Assembly (NCBI RefSeq): GCF_020176715.1
Contig: NZ_JAIVMF010000024.1
Coordinates: 1 to 35,303, forward strand
DNA from: Stappia stellulata
GTDB lineage: Bacteria; Pseudomonadota; Alphaproteobacteria; Rhizobiales; Stappiaceae
Length of the DNA stretch: 35,303 bases
Direction: 5' to 3'
A model generated the notes under the pieces. That model was not told the DNA's origin, searched no databases, and saw only the letters and a list, made by a program, of their open reading frames with translations. Positions 12,756 through 18,987 of the stretch are shown piece after piece. The position numbers and the translations under genes were made by a program. Positions within the stretch are counted from its first letter, which is position 1; each line of letters begins with the position of its first letter.

Positions 12756-12995
12756 GCCGCGGCAAGGGACGAGCGGAACCTGACCAGACGGCCCGGCCTC
12801 TTGCTCTGATTGCATATTATTACATCACGCCCTTTATACGGGAATCGTTGTAGTCTCGGCCCGGCTGGCCCTCCACCGAAAGCACTTCGGCCGGGAGCCG
12901 GCCGGACCGCCGGCACGCCCCCATCGGGCGCGCGGCCGCGTGCGGTCGTGGAACCGTCCCGGCGCGCTGCGGGGACGACACCGGAGGGGCACGAC

Positions 12996-14414
12996 ATGAC
13001 CCGGATCACCCATGGCACTTTCCCGATCGCCAAGCCGCCGCATCTTGAAACACGGGCCGATGCGACCCCGCCGCTCCTGCCGGCGGCCTGGGAATGCACC
13101 GCGCTGCTGCACGCCTACAGTCCGCCGCCGCGCAACGACCCCAAGACCACGCCGTTCTACCAGATGTGCCTCGCCTTCATCGGCTATGTCGCCGGAGAGA
13201 CCATGTCGATCCGGGTCGTCGGGCTCGACTATGGCACCTGGTGGTATGTGATCACTCCCTCCGGCACCAAGGTCTCGACCGACAAGGGGCTGACCTTCAC
13301 GGATGTCGACATGGGCTGGACCTTGCCGACGCAGACCTGGCTTCCGAGCACCGCGAGCTATTTCCAGACCGGCTATCTCAACTGGATGGAGGCGCAGGAG
13401 GTCGACTGGTGGAAACAGCCGGTGGAAAATTCCAATGCCGCGACCTGGACCTGGTTCGACAGTGCGACGTCGCTGCCGTTCCGCATGATGTTCGGCGCGC
13501 CGCCGCCGTCGCCGACCATGGGCGATCCGGCGCAGCTCGCCTTCTTCCAGAATTTCTCCTTCACCTATTTCCCGACGTTCGAGGCCACCGCCTCGCCCAA
13601 TGTCAGCACATGGGTCACCCCCGTCATCGAGGGGTTCCAGCCGGGAAATCCGAACAATCTCAAACTGGTGGTGTGGAACGACTGTTTCTACATGACCACC
13701 TTCATGACACCGGTGGATTCCGCGAGCCTGCCGCTGCCGACCGTTGTGCTCTACCAGTGGAAGCCGGATGCCGACTACCGGGTCGTGACCGACCGGGCGC
13801 AGGCGACCATCATGTCCTATGAGTACAATCCAAGCGCCGGCTTCCAGGATCAGGTGGCGCTGCTCTATGGCGTCGCGCCGACGGGCACCACGCCGCCGCC
13901 CTGGGCGGGAAACGGCTTCATCTACAACGAGATCTATTTCCTGACCCGGGGCTATCCGACCCCGGTGGTGCTTTCCTGCGACAACATCGGCCTCGGCCAG
14001 CAGCCGCCGGACTGGGCCCGGATTCCGGCCGTCGAAGGCAAGATCCACGCAACGGTCACCGACAACTCCGCCCTGTCGCCCGGTCAGGCGACCAACATCA
14101 TCTCGGTGCTCTTCCCGCCGACCAGGGAGTATCCGCAAGGCCGCTATCTGTGGACCTGGTACTCGCTGCTGCCCGGCTCCGATGGAACCAATGCCCGGCC
14201 CGTCACCTTCATGGAATCGGCGTCGAATATCGCCGAGGGCGGCACCAGCCTGGCGCTGGCGGATTACTACGACTATGTCGAATCCCCGAGCTGGTTCCCG
14301 GCCGAATATTACGCGCTGCCCGAGCTTTGCACGGTCTCCGGCGCAGGCGGCAAGGCAACGGACAAACCGACCGGCGCAGCGCTCCATCACACCGCGCCCG
14401 CCCCCAAGGCGTGA
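12996..14414 (+). CDS. Unknown tryptophan- and proline-rich protein
   Basis: I do not recognise this 472-aa protein. Start ATG 12996 has GGAGGGG 8 bases upstream. It lacks a signal peptide and membrane helices. It is rich in Trp, Tyr, Phe, Pro and Thr and poor in Lys, suggesting a beta-rich fold, with phrases such as GTWWYVITPSG, EVDWWKQPVEN and RYLWTWYSLLPG. There is no catalytic motif I can name. The next gene starts 25 bases after its stop and encodes a secreted beta-propeller-like protein, so the two are likely one operon. It opens the accessory block that also holds the JmjC oxygenases and mini-proteins. Confidence 0.75.
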   Translation: MTRITHGTFPIAKPPHLETRADATPPLLPAAWECTALLHAYSPPPRNDPKTTPFYQMCLAFIGYVAGETMSIRVVGLDYGTWWYVITPSGTKVSTDKGLTFTDVDMGWTLPTQTWLPSTASYFQTGYLNWMEAQEVDWWKQPVENSNAATWTWFDSATSLPFRMMFGAPPPSPTMGDPAQLAFFQNFSFTYFPTFEATASPNVSTWVTPVIEGFQPGNPNNLKLVVWNDCFYMTTFMTPVDSASLPLPTVVLYQWKPDADYRVVTDRAQATIMSYEYNPSAGFQDQVALLYGVAPTGTTPPPWAGNGFIYNEIYFLTRGYPTPVVLSCDNIGLGQQPPDWARIPAVEGKIHATVTDNSALSPGQATNIISVLFPPTREYPQGRYLWTWYSLLPGSDGTNARPVTFMESASNIAEGGTSLALADYYDYVESPSWFPAEYYALPELCTVSGAGGKATDKPTGAALHHTAPAPKA

Positions 14415-15758: not shown

Positions 15759-16757
15759 TCATGTCCGACGTTCGAGCCGGCCTGCGATGTCGTCGAGGCT
15801 TCCGCCGGATGGATTTGGATCGTAAGCGCGCGCGCCGTCAATTGCACCGTCCAACCCCGCCACGCGTGCGGCAAGGTCCTCGACAAAAGCCTCGAACTGC
15901 GTCTCGACGATCGCCGCCACCTGTGCGCTCTCGTCGGGAAAGGCCGAGGCACCGGCCGCGCGCACGCACCGGCGCAGGTCGTAACGCCCCTTGTAGGTCT
16001 CCAACAGCCGCTCGGCTTCCGTCTGCACCACATCATGGGTTCGGACCGGATCGACGCTCACCGCCACGTGCAGCGAGGGACGGCAGTCGGCATTGGAATA
16101 GGTCACATGGGTGAACCCGCGCGGCAGATAGAGCACATCGCCCGGCCTGAGAAGGAAGCTGTGGTCCGGGGGGCGCGCCGCCACCTGGCGCCGCACGGTC
16201 TCGGGATCGTAGCCGCGGGTGCGCAACGCGAGACGATTGCAGTCTTCGACCCAGACGTCCCAACGCTTCTCTCCCGACACCTGCAGCATGAAGGCGTCGA
16301 TGAGATCGTAATGCGGGCGCAATCCGTGACTGCGCGGCGGCGTCAGGAAGGCGCTGGCATGACTTGCGCTCGCGAAGACGGTCGCGCATTCGCGACACAA
16401 CGCGGCCAAGGCCGCAGACCGGCGTTCGACGAAACGCAGGTTGATGGTCGCTCCATTGAGATGCTGGTCCACCACCGCATCGTAGTCAATGAAGTCGCGG
16501 TGGCGCTCGCCGGCCAGGCGCCGCACCCTTTCGTAGTCCTTCCGCGCGACCGGTTCGCCGTTTCGATAGAGCCGCACCAATGCGGAGCGCGTCGTCAGCG
16601 ACGACAGCATTTCATCGACCCGCTCGATCCCGAACAGACCATCGAAAGCCCGCCCGCGCGCCTCGAACAGCATCGGGCGCACCTCGAAGACCTCCCGGAC
16701 AAAGCGGTCGGGCGACAGCGGAGACAGCAAATCCGCCAGCGTCACTGTCGCCGTCAT
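15759..16757 (-). CDS. JmjC/cupin_4-type Fe(II)/2-oxoglutarate oxygenase (second of pair)
   Basis: A 332-aa protein of the cupin_4/JmjC superfamily, whose characterised members (E. coli YcfD/RoxA, human MINA53 and NO66) hydroxylate Arg or His in ribosomal proteins. The iron triad is H149-x-D151 (PHYDLIDAFMLQVSGEKRW) and H217 (GDVLYLPRGFTHVTY). The QVSGEKRWDVW strand and LRPGDVLYLPRG turn are family hallmarks. The N-terminal 140 and C-terminal 90 residues are helical and lack recognisable motifs. Its ATG overlaps the stop of the upstream oxygenase (ATGA), so translation is coupled. Its linkage to three mini-protein genes suggests a small-protein or peptide substrate instead of the ribosome, by inference. 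Confidence 0.85.
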   Translation of the reverse strand: MTATVTLADLLSPLSPDRFVREVFEVRPMLFEARGRAFDGLFGIERVDEMLSSLTTRSALVRLYRNGEPVARKDYERVRRLAGERHRDFIDYDAVVDQHLNGATINLRFVERRSAALAALCRECATVFASASHASAFLTPPRSHGLRPHYDLIDAFMLQVSGEKRWDVWVEDCNRLALRTRGYDPETVRRQVAARPPDHSFLLRPGDVLYLPRGFTHVTYSNADCRPSLHVAVSVDPVRTHDVVQTEAERLLETYKGRYDLRRCVRAAGASAFPDESAQVAAIVETQFEAFVEDLAARVAGLDGAIDGARAYDPNPSGGSLDDIAGRLERRT

Positions 16758-18049
16758 GCCGTGCCTCGCTGGACATCGGCCAGATCGCTTTGCAGCAGCG
16801 CAATCACCCCGGTCCGGGCACTGCCATGTCCCAGGTCCGCAACAAGTGCCTTGAAAGCGATACCGGACCGGCAGTCCCCGCTAGTGAGAACAGCCAACAC
16901 CTGCGCGGCCTCCACTGCCAGGTGGTGCGGCTCAATGGCGGCGCCGGCCGGACCGACGAGAAGGACGCGATCCGCGCACTCAGGATCGTCAAGGCGCAGG
17001 CTCAGTTCCAGCAAGCGCCCGCTCCAGGCCGATCGCCCCGTCCCGGGATTGCACGAAACCGGCGTTCCCGCGTTCCTGGGGCTTGCGTCCGACGCGCGGA
17101 TTTCCCGTCCCGCCGCCCGGATCAGGTCACTCAGCGCGTTGCGCCCGTCGGGACCCGCCAAGACCTGCCGGGCGCTGCGGCGCATCGACTGGTCGTCGGC
17201 GAGACGCGCAAGAAGACGCTCGACGCGACGTTCCAGAACCCCGTGAATGCGCTCGACCAGAAGGCCAACGGTGAGATGGAGGGAGTGCTCGGCCCGTGCC
17301 TCGGCACAATGCACATAGCCGCGCGGTATGTAGAGAACGTCGCCCGGGCGAACTTCCCCGTCGAAGATCAGCGGTGCCCCGCGCACGCGCCGCTCCACGG
17401 ACGCGGCGTGGCGCGCCTTGTCCGGCCGCCGCAGTGGCAGCGGAACGGGATCGCCCCAGATTCGCCAGTGCTTGCGGCCGCTCAATTGAACAACGAACAC
17501 GTCGTGCATGTCGTAGTGGATGTGCAAGGTTTGCGTGTTCGGGAAGGTCAGGTAGGAATTCGCCTGGCAATCAACGCCGATCTCGCGTTCCAAATCCGCA
17601 CAGAACCGGCGGATCGCAGGCCGGATCTTCTCCAAGAACTGCAAGGCAAGGCTGTCGCCGCGCGCAAGCCGTTCATAGATGCGTGCCGGAAGCGCGACGC
17701 CGGAAACGCTATCGGACCCGATCTTGAGCGGCGCGATCAGTTCGCGTTCCGGAACGGCCTGCCCAGCGGAAAACACACGAAAGTGCGGTGCCTTCAGCCC
17801 TTCGAACTGGAGAATCCGGTCGATTTCGGTGAGCGAGAGCAAATCGGGAGGCGTTCGGCCCTTGCCGTCCACAACCAGAGGTTTTTTCTCCCAATGCGCC
17901 GCAAAGAACCGCGTCGCGTCCATCCCCCCGATGCAATACGCCAGCGGCGAAACAGCGCCGGTGTCGTCGGGTTCGGCAGGATTTTTCTGCCTTTCCACAC
18001 CCGGCTCGGCGGCGGTCTGCGGCGCGTCGGTGCGCTTGAGTTGGCGCAT
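16754..18049 (-). CDS. JmjC/cupin_4-type Fe(II)/2-oxoglutarate oxygenase (first of pair)
   Basis: A 431-aa protein of the same superfamily as the next gene but clearly diverged. The iron triad is H178-x-D180 (HIHYDMHDVFVVQLSGRKHW) and H247 (GDVLYIPRGYVH), laid out as in YcfD. An N-terminal region with FFAAHWEKKPLVV (49-61) is the typical cupin_4 opening. The C-terminal 160 residues are helical, as in ribosomal oxygenases where this part forms a dimer and winged-helix region. A 30-residue polar N-terminal tail precedes it. The gene begins 4 bases after the stop of the nearest mini-protein gene and overlaps the second oxygenase, so all form one operon. Substrate unknown. Confidence 0.87.
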   Translation of the reverse strand: MRQLKRTDAPQTAAEPGVERQKNPAEPDDTGAVSPLAYCIGGMDATRFFAAHWEKKPLVVDGKGRTPPDLLSLTEIDRILQFEGLKAPHFRVFSAGQAVPERELIAPLKIGSDSVSGVALPARIYERLARGDSLALQFLEKIRPAIRRFCADLEREIGVDCQANSYLTFPNTQTLHIHYDMHDVFVVQLSGRKHWRIWGDPVPLPLRRPDKARHAASVERRVRGAPLIFDGEVRPGDVLYIPRGYVHCAEARAEHSLHLTVGLLVERIHGVLERRVERLLARLADDQSMRRSARQVLAGPDGRNALSDLIRAAGREIRASDASPRNAGTPVSCNPGTGRSAWSGRLLELSLRLDDPECADRVLLVGPAGAAIEPHHLAVEAAQVLAVLTSGDCRSGIAFKALVADLGHGSARTGVIALLQSDLADVQRGTA

Positions 18050-18053
18050 ACGT

Positions 18054-18278
18054 TCAGCCGCCGTCGGCTTTCACGTTGCGATCGTGATCCGGCTCCGGAT
18101 CGACATCACCCGTAACGTCATCAAAATCGCGGAGCGGATCTTCGCGAGCATGATCCGCATCCATATACGGACCGACCGGACTGCGCTTGAGCGCGGCACG
18201 CAGGTCCATCACTTCCTTGCGCAAATCGAGAATGTCGGCGCGCAGACTCAGCACCAGCGATTTCAGATCGTCGGACAT
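18054..18278 (-). CDS. Mini-protein A (74 aa), nearest to the oxygenases
   Basis: Start ATG 18278 has GGGGGAA upstream. Residues 1-33 form an amphipathic coiled-coil-like helix (SDDLKSLVLSLRADILDLRK then EVMDLRAAL). Then come KRSPVGPYMDADHARE and an acidic segment with DVTGDVD near 54-60. Unlike its two paralogues it continues past that motif with 14 polar residues (PEPDHDRNVKADGG). The first 46 residues equal those of mini-protein B except L26 for V. There is no cysteine, signal peptide or metal motif. The stop is 4 bases from the first oxygenase start. A substrate or partner of those enzymes is the simplest reading; a small regulatory subunit is the alternative. Confidence 0.8.
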   Translation of the reverse strand: MSDDLKSLVLSLRADILDLRKEVMDLRAALKRSPVGPYMDADHAREDPLRDFDDVTGDVDPEPDHDRNVKADGG

Positions 18279-18367
18279 CGGTTCCCCCAGTTGCCAGGTC
18301 GAAATGCCCCTCCACTCCCGGCGTCTCCGCTCGCGCCGGCAACGGACGGGACCGGGCTATCCCGGAT

Positions 18368-18559
18368 TCAGGTGTTTTCCTGATCGACGTCGCCGGTCAC
18401 GGGATCAAGATCGCGCATCGCTTCGCGAGCATGATCCGCATCCATGTAAGGGCCGACCGGACTGCGCTTGAGCGCTGCGCGCACGTCCATCACCTCTTTG
18501 CGCAAATCGAGGATGTCGGCGCGCAGGCTCAACACCAGCGATTTCAAATCGTCGGACAT
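18368..18559 (-). CDS. Mini-protein B (63 aa)
   Basis: Start ATG 18559 follows AAGGGGGAG. The frame is open back to 18613, but paralogy with the two sisters fixes this start. The N-terminal 46 residues match mini-protein A at 45 positions although the DNA differs at 12 of 138 positions, so change has been almost entirely synonymous: good evidence of a translated, constrained gene. The C-terminus ends LDPVTGDVDQENT; the last ten residues (VTGDVDQENT) are shared exactly with mini-protein C. An 89-base spacer separates it from mini-protein A. No known family was recognised. Confidence 0.82.
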   Translation of the reverse strand: MSDDLKSLVLSLRADILDLRKEVMDVRAALKRSPVGPYMDADHAREAMRDLDPVTGDVDQENT

Positions 18560-18591
18560 CGGCTCCCCCTTTTCCTTTGTTCTCTGTGATC

Positions 18592-18608
18592 CCGGCGCTC
18601 CGCGCCGG
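18592..18608. repeat. Intercistronic hairpin between mini-protein genes C and B
   Basis: CCGGCGC (18592-18598) and GCGCCGG (18602-18608) form a 7-bp all-GC stem with a 3-base loop. No T run follows on the minus strand, so it is more likely an attenuating or RNA-processing/stabilising element than a full terminator. It could set the ratio of the first mini-protein to the rest of the operon. Confidence 0.5.
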
Positions 18609-18649
18609 TGCATCTTCCGATCTGTTTTCGGCGGGCAGCGCCGATGCGA

Positions 18650-18829
18650 TCAGGTGTTTTCCTGATCGACGTCACCGGTCACGTTGTCCGGATCCTTCAT
18701 CTCGGAATCGGCATCCACATCGACGGCCCCGCTCTTCGCGATTGCATCACGCAGATCCATCACCTGCTTGCGCAGGTCGAGCACGTCGCTGCGCATGCTC
18801 AGGATCATCGCCTTTATGTCGTCCGACAT
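18650..18829 (-). CDS. Mini-protein C (59 aa), first gene of the operon
   Basis: Start ATG 18829 has a strong AGGAGGCGGG seven bases upstream. The sequence begins MSDDIKAMILSMRSDVLDLR, continues KQVMDLRDAIAKSG, and lacks the KRSPVGPYM segment of its paralogues, having instead a short Asp-rich stretch (AVDVDADSEMKDPDN) before the common VTGDVDQENT end. It is the most diverged copy, so the triplication has two ages. Upstream DNA (18830-18990) is AT-rich next to the start and contains a perfect TTGACA on the minus strand (18891-18896), though a -10 hexamer at normal spacing was not found. Probably the promoter-proximal gene. Confidence 0.8.
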   Translation of the reverse strand: MSDDIKAMILSMRSDVLDLRKQVMDLRDAIAKSGAVDVDADSEMKDPDNVTGDVDQENT

Positions 18830-18921
18830 GAAACCCGCCTCCTATGGATGTAAGAAATTATTATTGCACTCAATTTGAAATTGCAGAAATTGTCAACTAT
18901 CAAAGGTCCCGGCGGACCGCA

Positions 18922-18974
18922 AAGGTCCGCAGGCTCCATCCGCTCGACAGAACCTGCGGGCCTTGCTCTTTTTT
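18922..18974. terminator. Long hairpin between the SGNH hydrolase gene and the mini-protein operon
   Basis: AAGGTCCGCAGGCTC (18922-18936) pairs with GAACCTGCGGGCCTT (18950-18964) over 15 positions, allowing G-U pairs, and is followed on the plus strand by CTCTTTTTT (T run 18969-18974). As RNA from the minus strand it is a stem of 15 with one mismatch, just after the SGNH hydrolase stop, where it would separate that gene from the mini-protein operon. The better T run is on the plus strand, where no gene is upstream. Confidence 0.55.
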
Positions 18975-18987
18975 CCGACGGCCCGGA

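Follow-up and report, generated by a model that had tools for sequence, protein, structure and literature searches.

A putative RiPP-like operon in Stappia stellulata combining three small acidic proteins with two JmjC_2 oxygenases

The contig NZ_JAIVMF010000024.1 of Stappia stellulata was analyzed over its whole length of 35,303 nucleotides (hereafter the window), representing one entire contig of a 4.55-Mb genome. On its minus strand lies an operon of five genes, which encode, in this order, three small acidic proteins (mini59, mini63 and mini74, together the minis) and two oxygenases of the JmjC_2 family (OxyA and OxyB; Table 1). An earlier sequence-only reading of this DNA had described three tandem paralogous genes in front of two overlapping oxygenase genes, and the open reading frames bear out this arrangement including its spacing, with gaps of 90, 89 and 4 bases followed by a 4-base overlap between OxyA and OxyB. 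The interval it assigned to the system (16754–18829) covers the minis and OxyA, but leaves OxyB outside. All three mini starts are preceded by purine-rich, Shine-Dalgarno-like stretches, as judged by eye, and the minis look like genuine genes. The likely promoter region of the operon differs in GC content (0.51) from the gaps between the minis (0.64 and 0.70); a sigma-70-type scan of this region found no site on the minus strand.

Table 1 Features of the operon and its upstream region in the window.
Feature	Position	Strand	Description
mini59	18650–18829	-	59 aa; first of the small acidic proteins; coiled-coil-like helix at the N-terminus, VTGDVD in the acidic tail; open reading frame
mini63	18368–18559	-	63 aa; second paralogue; purifying selection versus mini74
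mini74	18054–18278	-	74 aa; third paralogue, acidic tail longer
OxyA	16754–18049	-	431 aa; JmjC_2/cupin_4 oxygenase (cofactors expected from the family: 2-oxoglutarate and iron), C-terminal winged-helix-like part
OxyB	15759–16757	-	332 aa; second JmjC_2 oxygenase, without C-terminal winged-helix-like part
Likely promoter region of the operon	18830–18987	-	158 bases, GC 0.51; inferred from composition

The three minis are paralogues, with mini74 and mini59 showing 87% and 61% identity to mini63, respectively. Within the first 46 codons of mini63 and mini74, 12 codons differ (P = 9e-7 versus random single-base change). Since 11 of these 12 differences are synonymous and one is not, mini63 and mini74 are, judged by their codons, under selection as proteins. 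All three minis start with MSDD[IL] (residues 2–5 being SDDI, SDDL and SDDL), carry hydrophobic residues at positions 5, 9, 12, 16, 19, 23, 26 and 30, forming a regular heptad with 3–4 spacing, and end in an acidic tail, in which the block VTGDVD is invariant. None of them matched a profile of Pfam, NCBIfam or PADLOC above chance level; the best matches (mini63 in NCBIfam and mini74 in Pfam) reached a chance-level score of 12 bits. Likewise, no mini matched the NHLP leader profile TIGR03793 at E ≤ 1, and none of the five operon proteins matched a PADLOC defence profile at E 0.01.

Both oxygenases score far above the cut-off of 22 bits for Pfam JmjC_2 (PF08007), with 91 bits for OxyA and 78 bits for OxyB, and are 27% identical to each other in a local alignment. 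The complete HxD...H triads noted from the sequence were confirmed (H178/D180/H247 in OxyA and H149/D151/H217 in OxyB). For comparison, the best 80 of at least 576 confirmed relatives were kept from a profile scan whose query was an alignment of 20 JmjC_2 sequences headed by OxyA (hereafter the named loci). In family alignments sampling 38/80 (A3) and 28/80 (A4) of the named loci, the triad residues of OxyA and OxyB fall on invariant columns. The predicted structure of OxyA (mean predicted local distance difference test score, pLDDT, 78) shows a JmjC fold followed by C-terminal strands and then helices at a pLDDT of about 58–77. In the model of OxyB (mean pLDDT 83), the JmjC fold ends in helices. 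NO66 is the top fold match for both enzymes, and the solved relatives by sequence of the family alignment are NO66, MINA53, Bacillus subtilis YxbC and YcfD/RoxA. None of 135 other stretches compared (128 distinct places, the remaining 7 stretches being longer refetches of places already counted, and many having a flank of only 1.5 kb) holds two JmjC_2 genes, so that within this set only the window shows the tandem arrangement.

Next, we looked at the genomic neighbourhood of homologous oxygenases. At 63 of the 75 named loci with a complete bin, a same-strand block of at least three D[GSA]GA repeats lies within 1 kb upstream of the oxygenase. The contrast by distance and strand served as a control: between -3 and +3 kb, every other 1-kb bin lacked such blocks (0 of 72–75 loci per bin), as did the opposite strand. 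Using a wider upstream window, the block is present at 68/80 loci. Among the remaining 12, three (L144, L093 and L140) carry other small Asp-rich genes upstream, four (L072, L099, L114 and L122) offer hardly any upstream DNA or none at all, and five (L075, L115, L117, L118 and L135) showed no Asp-rich gene upstream, the oxygenase start being doubtful in the first four of these. A plain count of the Asp fraction was dropped as too blunt, as it picked 52/80 loci, chance frames included. On the other side of the oxygenase, a Suc_Fer-like gene follows at 39/73 named loci according to tblastn, and Pfam confirmed PF06999 (Suc_Fer-like) directly 3' of the JmjC_2 gene in all four loci scanned (L114, L124, L144 and L148). 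Perhaps this protein is a redox partner of the JmjC_2 enzyme; in the window, a convergent NHL-repeat gene takes this place after OxyB.

In addition, [TS]DxD blocks were counted in the flanks of 48 non-window loci obtained from searches of the family, order and class, including three (L055, L056 and L057) in which no oxygenase frame was found. Half of them (24/48) adjoin a [TS]DxD-repeat gene, with L029 reaching two matches only when the leader is included. A DNDPYDD-like or similar Asp-rich protein is located beside the oxygenase at a further 4/48 loci (L032, L035, L037 and L039), and 4/48 represent NHLP-type clusters (L008, L009, L010 and L012). Such a partner is missing at 16/48 loci, ten of which fall within one clade (support 100/100), the others being L030, L038, L043, L045, L055 and L057. 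Many of the small Asp-rich partners combine a twin-arginine-like start with repeats such as TDSDPYD...GRG. A loose RR-type motif occurs in all 24 [TS]DxD partner frames (taken from stop to stop), and 2/9 Asp-rich partners scanned reach the cut-off of the twin-arginine translocation (Tat) signal profile TIGR01409, making export of many Asp-rich partners likely as far as their sequences tell. Two single loci are worth recording: at L151 (5910–6746), two tandem Tat-like precursors with the leaders LSESDI and LGEDDI are divergent from the JmjC_2 gene, and at L043 (970–3358) the JmjC_2 gene overlaps a radical SAM gene, no precursor being identified there. Altogether, small Asp-rich genes are linked generally to homologous JmjC_2 enzymes.

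The relationship of OxyA and OxyB to these enzymes was assessed in a tree of 81 rows, including 34/80 named loci and leaving out L055, L056 and L057 (no oxygenase frame found) as well as L036 (cut frame). OxyA joined the group of D[GSA]GA-partnered enzymes together with a TDxD group (support 83/92, branch 1.59). OxyB appeared as sister to L045 (support 96/96), a join that is unsure because of the long branches; L045 adjoins a large frame that looks, by eye, like a nonribosomal peptide synthetase, and no precursor was seen there. Escherichia coli RoxA took no firm place, on a branch of 4.04. The label "RoxA-like" for the ten-member clade without partners was rejected, as E. coli RoxA lies outside this clade in the tree and does not score nearer to it in BLAST either. 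For OxyA, the best BLAST match among the sequences of the tree is the Asp-partnered L069 with 162 bits, versus 99 bits for the best member of the partner-less clade, within a named set that was itself chosen by similarity to OxyA. For OxyB, L072 ranks first with 120 bits (too little upstream DNA for judging its partner), followed by the partnered L048 with 112 bits, while the partner-less clade reaches 84 bits.

Do the minis share features with the partners of homologous enzymes? Across eight repeat types (one hand-picked example each), D and G are the sole residues that reach at least 3% in all, leaving Asp as the one shared residue that has a side chain. Moreover, a [DENS][DE][DEQN][ILM] motif is found ahead of the repeats in 48/88 partner entries, compared with 1.9 on average and at most 6 in 300 shuffles; among these entries, L027 is in the wrong frame, and the tested stretch of L029, L058, L061 and L066 ends short of the leader motif. 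The minis fit this pattern at residues 2–5, with the reservation given below. The minis resemble the D[GSA]GA and TDxD pairs in that a small Asp-rich gene lies directly upstream of a JmjC_2 gene on the same strand. In many of these partners, a DD[DE][IM]-like N-terminal motif is present. The D[GSA]GA and TDxD pairs have tandem repeats, a twin-arginine-like motif (in the [TS]DxD set) and one JmjC_2 gene, and the window differs in each of these points.

A second kind of pairing is found in the source genome itself. Its third JmjC_2 gene (contig C4, L016) starts 15 bases after the gene of a 100-aa NHLP-like precursor. The sister version of this precursor in L009 matches TIGR03793 with 36.9 bits (E 2e-9), short of the cut-off of 50.9. 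In same-genus genomes, the same cluster contains Trp_halogenase and DUF4135 (LanM-type) in L014 and a 2-oxoglutarate oxygenase in L015. Like the window, these NHLP-leader RiPP-type clusters (ribosomally synthesized and post-translationally modified peptides; L013–L016) place a PF08007 enzyme beside a small candidate precursor, but they have an NHLP leader, which the minis do not match, and further enzymes. With this pair on C4, JmjC_2 enzymes of the genus accompany predicted small precursors in two unlike settings.

Taken together, we consider the five genes to be a RiPP-like protein-modification operon, in which the minis would be precursors hydroxylated by OxyA, perhaps paired with OxyB, and assign this interpretation a probability of roughly 0.6. 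One trait of RiPP systems is present, namely small gene-encoded candidate precursors adjoining putative modifying enzymes. A part for leader recognition, for instance one like a RiPP recognition element, may be present in the C-terminal strands and helices of OxyA, but has no counterpart in the OxyB model. Within a widespread pairing of JmjC_2 enzymes and Asp-rich proteins, the operon is probably a divergent member with two enzymes. The N-terminal helix of the minis, with its SDD[IL] start, could serve in recognition or oligomerisation, and the modification would fall on the Asp-rich tail, which contains VTGDVD. Using Fe(II), O2 and 2-oxoglutarate, OxyA, perhaps together with OxyB, would hydroxylate these tails, most likely at the C-beta of Asp (or Asn), yielding 3-hydroxyaspartate, which could bind metal. 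We infer the substrate role of the minis, the Asp site and the metal binding from gene context and composition; metal binding and the Asp site are guesses from composition.

Much of this had been proposed from the sequence, and the individual claims fared differently. That the minis are the substrates gained in part from the finding that homologous oxygenases often adjoin small Asp-rich genes, which in the named loci lie on one side and on one strand, as a substrate relation predicts, but no convincing mini homologue was found outside the source genome in the class and family genomes searched. The assignment of the helix to docking and of the acidic tail to modification agrees, at the level of sequence, with the heptad helix and the acidic tail. 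By contrast, the suggestion that two enzymes mean two sites found no support, and the lack of a C-terminal winged-helix-like part in OxyB would equally allow an OxyA–OxyB complex. One may guess that the two enzymes divide the work, the recognition part of OxyA serving both.

Several observations weigh against the precursor interpretation. The best-80 set consists mostly of mutually related actinobacterial loci picked by OxyA similarity, and the D[GSA]GA pattern was settled on only once their sequences had been seen. An Asp-density threshold was exceeded upstream at only 19/80 of these loci, giving a much weaker contrast than the repeat pattern (18/75 in the upstream same-strand 1-kb bin versus 11/72, 5/75, 1/73, 4/73 and 7/73 in the others). 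The grouping of OxyA with the Asp-partnered clades is weak, on a long branch. Regarding the minis, their sequences have neither tandem repeats nor a Tat signal, unlike most partners. Shuffled sequences attain their DxD counts of 4, 3 and 4 in 23, 23 and 39% of cases, which is not above chance, and three DxD within 30 aa recur at five further places when the window is translated in six frames. The match of residues 2–5 to the DD[DE][IM]-like leader motif has a shuffle chance of 2–4% in the first ten residues, and the three matches count as one event because the minis are paralogues. No protease or exporter gene is among the five operon genes, although such genes may lie elsewhere in the genome. 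Finally, no convincing mini homologue was found beyond the source genome among 385 genomes of the class and 87 of the family, so that the search for the mini motif beside such oxygenases, envisaged by the sequence-only reading, left nothing to count; three weak matches (E 0.002–0.008) all lie inside frames of 306–593 aa.

Close relatives of the oxygenases are scarce as well. OxyA-like genes were detected in 4/87 family genomes at E 1e-20 and in 27/397 order genomes at E 1e-15, none exceeding 36% identity besides the window itself, and OxyB-like genes in 17/385 class genomes at E 1e-15. Using OxyA alone as a pattern query of genome contigs returned 82 stretches, which contained no relatives according to tblastn, and the best matches among 131 plasmid records showed at most 36% identity. 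Judging from this scarcity of mini, OxyA and OxyB homologues, the operon is rare among the genomes searched or was recently acquired. Elsewhere in the window, an IS1595-family transposase gene is located close to the contig end (450–1337), and a 510-aa frame (12882–14414) has no match in Pfam or NCBIfam and is followed by an NHL-repeat protein, whose match to ScyF is far below the cut-off. An antiporter protein encoded in the window has its best matches, at 61–63%, on plasmids of Shinella and Sinorhizobium, in keeping with an alphaproteobacterial origin.

Among other explanations, the one that survives best overlaps with the precursor interpretation: the minis would be precursors, with the modification falling on a residue other than Asp, such as Asn, His, Arg or Pro near VTGDVD, or with a chemistry other than hydroxylation, for instance oxidative crosslinking. 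JmjC enzymes act on Arg, His, Asn and Lys, and GRG motifs recur in many [TS]DxD partners. Moreover, a JmjC enzyme acting on ornithine has been described (PMC12707348). As D and G alone attain 3% throughout the eight repeat types, we regard this variant as unlikely, yet worth keeping in mind. Less probable still is that the minis serve as coiled-coil adaptors or scaffolds, which would bring OxyA and OxyB to another target instead of being modified themselves. Such a role would suit the heptad hydrophobics over residues 5–30 in all three minis and the presence of three copies with no tandem-repeat core, but it accounts poorly for the invariant VTGDVD block in their tails, and homologous enzymes have Asp-rich repeat proteins as partners, none of which showed such a heptad helix by eye. 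Very improbable, finally, is that OxyA and OxyB are ordinary ribosomal-protein hydroxylases of the RoxA/NO66/MINA53 type with the minis as unrelated operon cargo: NO66 and MINA53 are indeed the nearest solved folds, with YcfD-type proteins and YxbC further down, but the nearest sequences in the set are Asp-partnered enzymes wherever the partner could be judged, two tandem copies are unusual (0/135), the third JmjC_2 gene of the genome adjoins an NHLP-like precursor, and the place of E. coli RoxA on its very long branch is unsure.

To our knowledge, the JmjC_2 family has so far been known mainly for ribosomal hydroxylases. RoxA/YcfD, NO66 and MINA53, which share the fold and catalytic triad of OxyA and OxyB, act on ribosomal substrates, as also named in the titles of their PDB entries. 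In E. coli, unlike in the window, roxA is flanked by pepT and phoQ, and the annotation shows no small precursor gene. Closer in layout are the biphenomycin-type RiPP clusters, in which the JmjC enzyme BipG and the related cupin-like PbsQ hydroxylate ornithine in the precursors (PMC12707348, PMC12257519). As proposed for the window, these clusters combine a JmjC or related cupin-like hydroxylase with a small ribosomal precursor. However, ornithine hydroxylation is there one step among those of MNIO, B12-dependent radical SAM and arginase enzymes, whereas the window operon has no other enzymes. Bacterial homologues (~30% identity) of eukaryotic fusions between a RiPP recognition element and JmjC (PF08007) have also been noted in RiPP-like contexts (PMC12710340). 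For the exact layout, the claim that no such system had been described stands in the open literature searched, but BipG and PbsQ are already reported examples of JmjC or cupin-like hydroxylases acting on RiPP precursors. For Asp-repeat proteins paired with JmjC_2 enzymes, no description was found in the open literature, most subscription papers lying outside it; of five Asp-repeat strings looked up there, four occur in no paper and one only in two papers unrelated by title.

For a large branch of JmjC_2 oxygenases that has been orphan, the operon provides a tangible candidate substrate. Asp-rich partners beside such enzymes are found in Actinobacteria, Chloroflexi (L093 and L144), an acidobacterial bin (L140) and genomes taken as Alphaproteobacteria. 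On a tentative view, to which we give somewhat less than even odds, the JmjC_2 oxygenases of several phyla would form an undescribed class turning small Asp-repeat proteins into 3-hydroxyaspartate-rich products, probably serving as metal ligands. The window would then carry a reduced form of it, with two oxygenases acting together and three coiled-coil precursors that are not exported. This wider class of JmjC_2 enzymes and Asp-rich proteins may deserve more than the label of a variant of JmjC hydroxylase plus precursor. If Asp hydroxylation proves true, bacteria would have a short route to proteins rich in 3-hydroxyaspartate.

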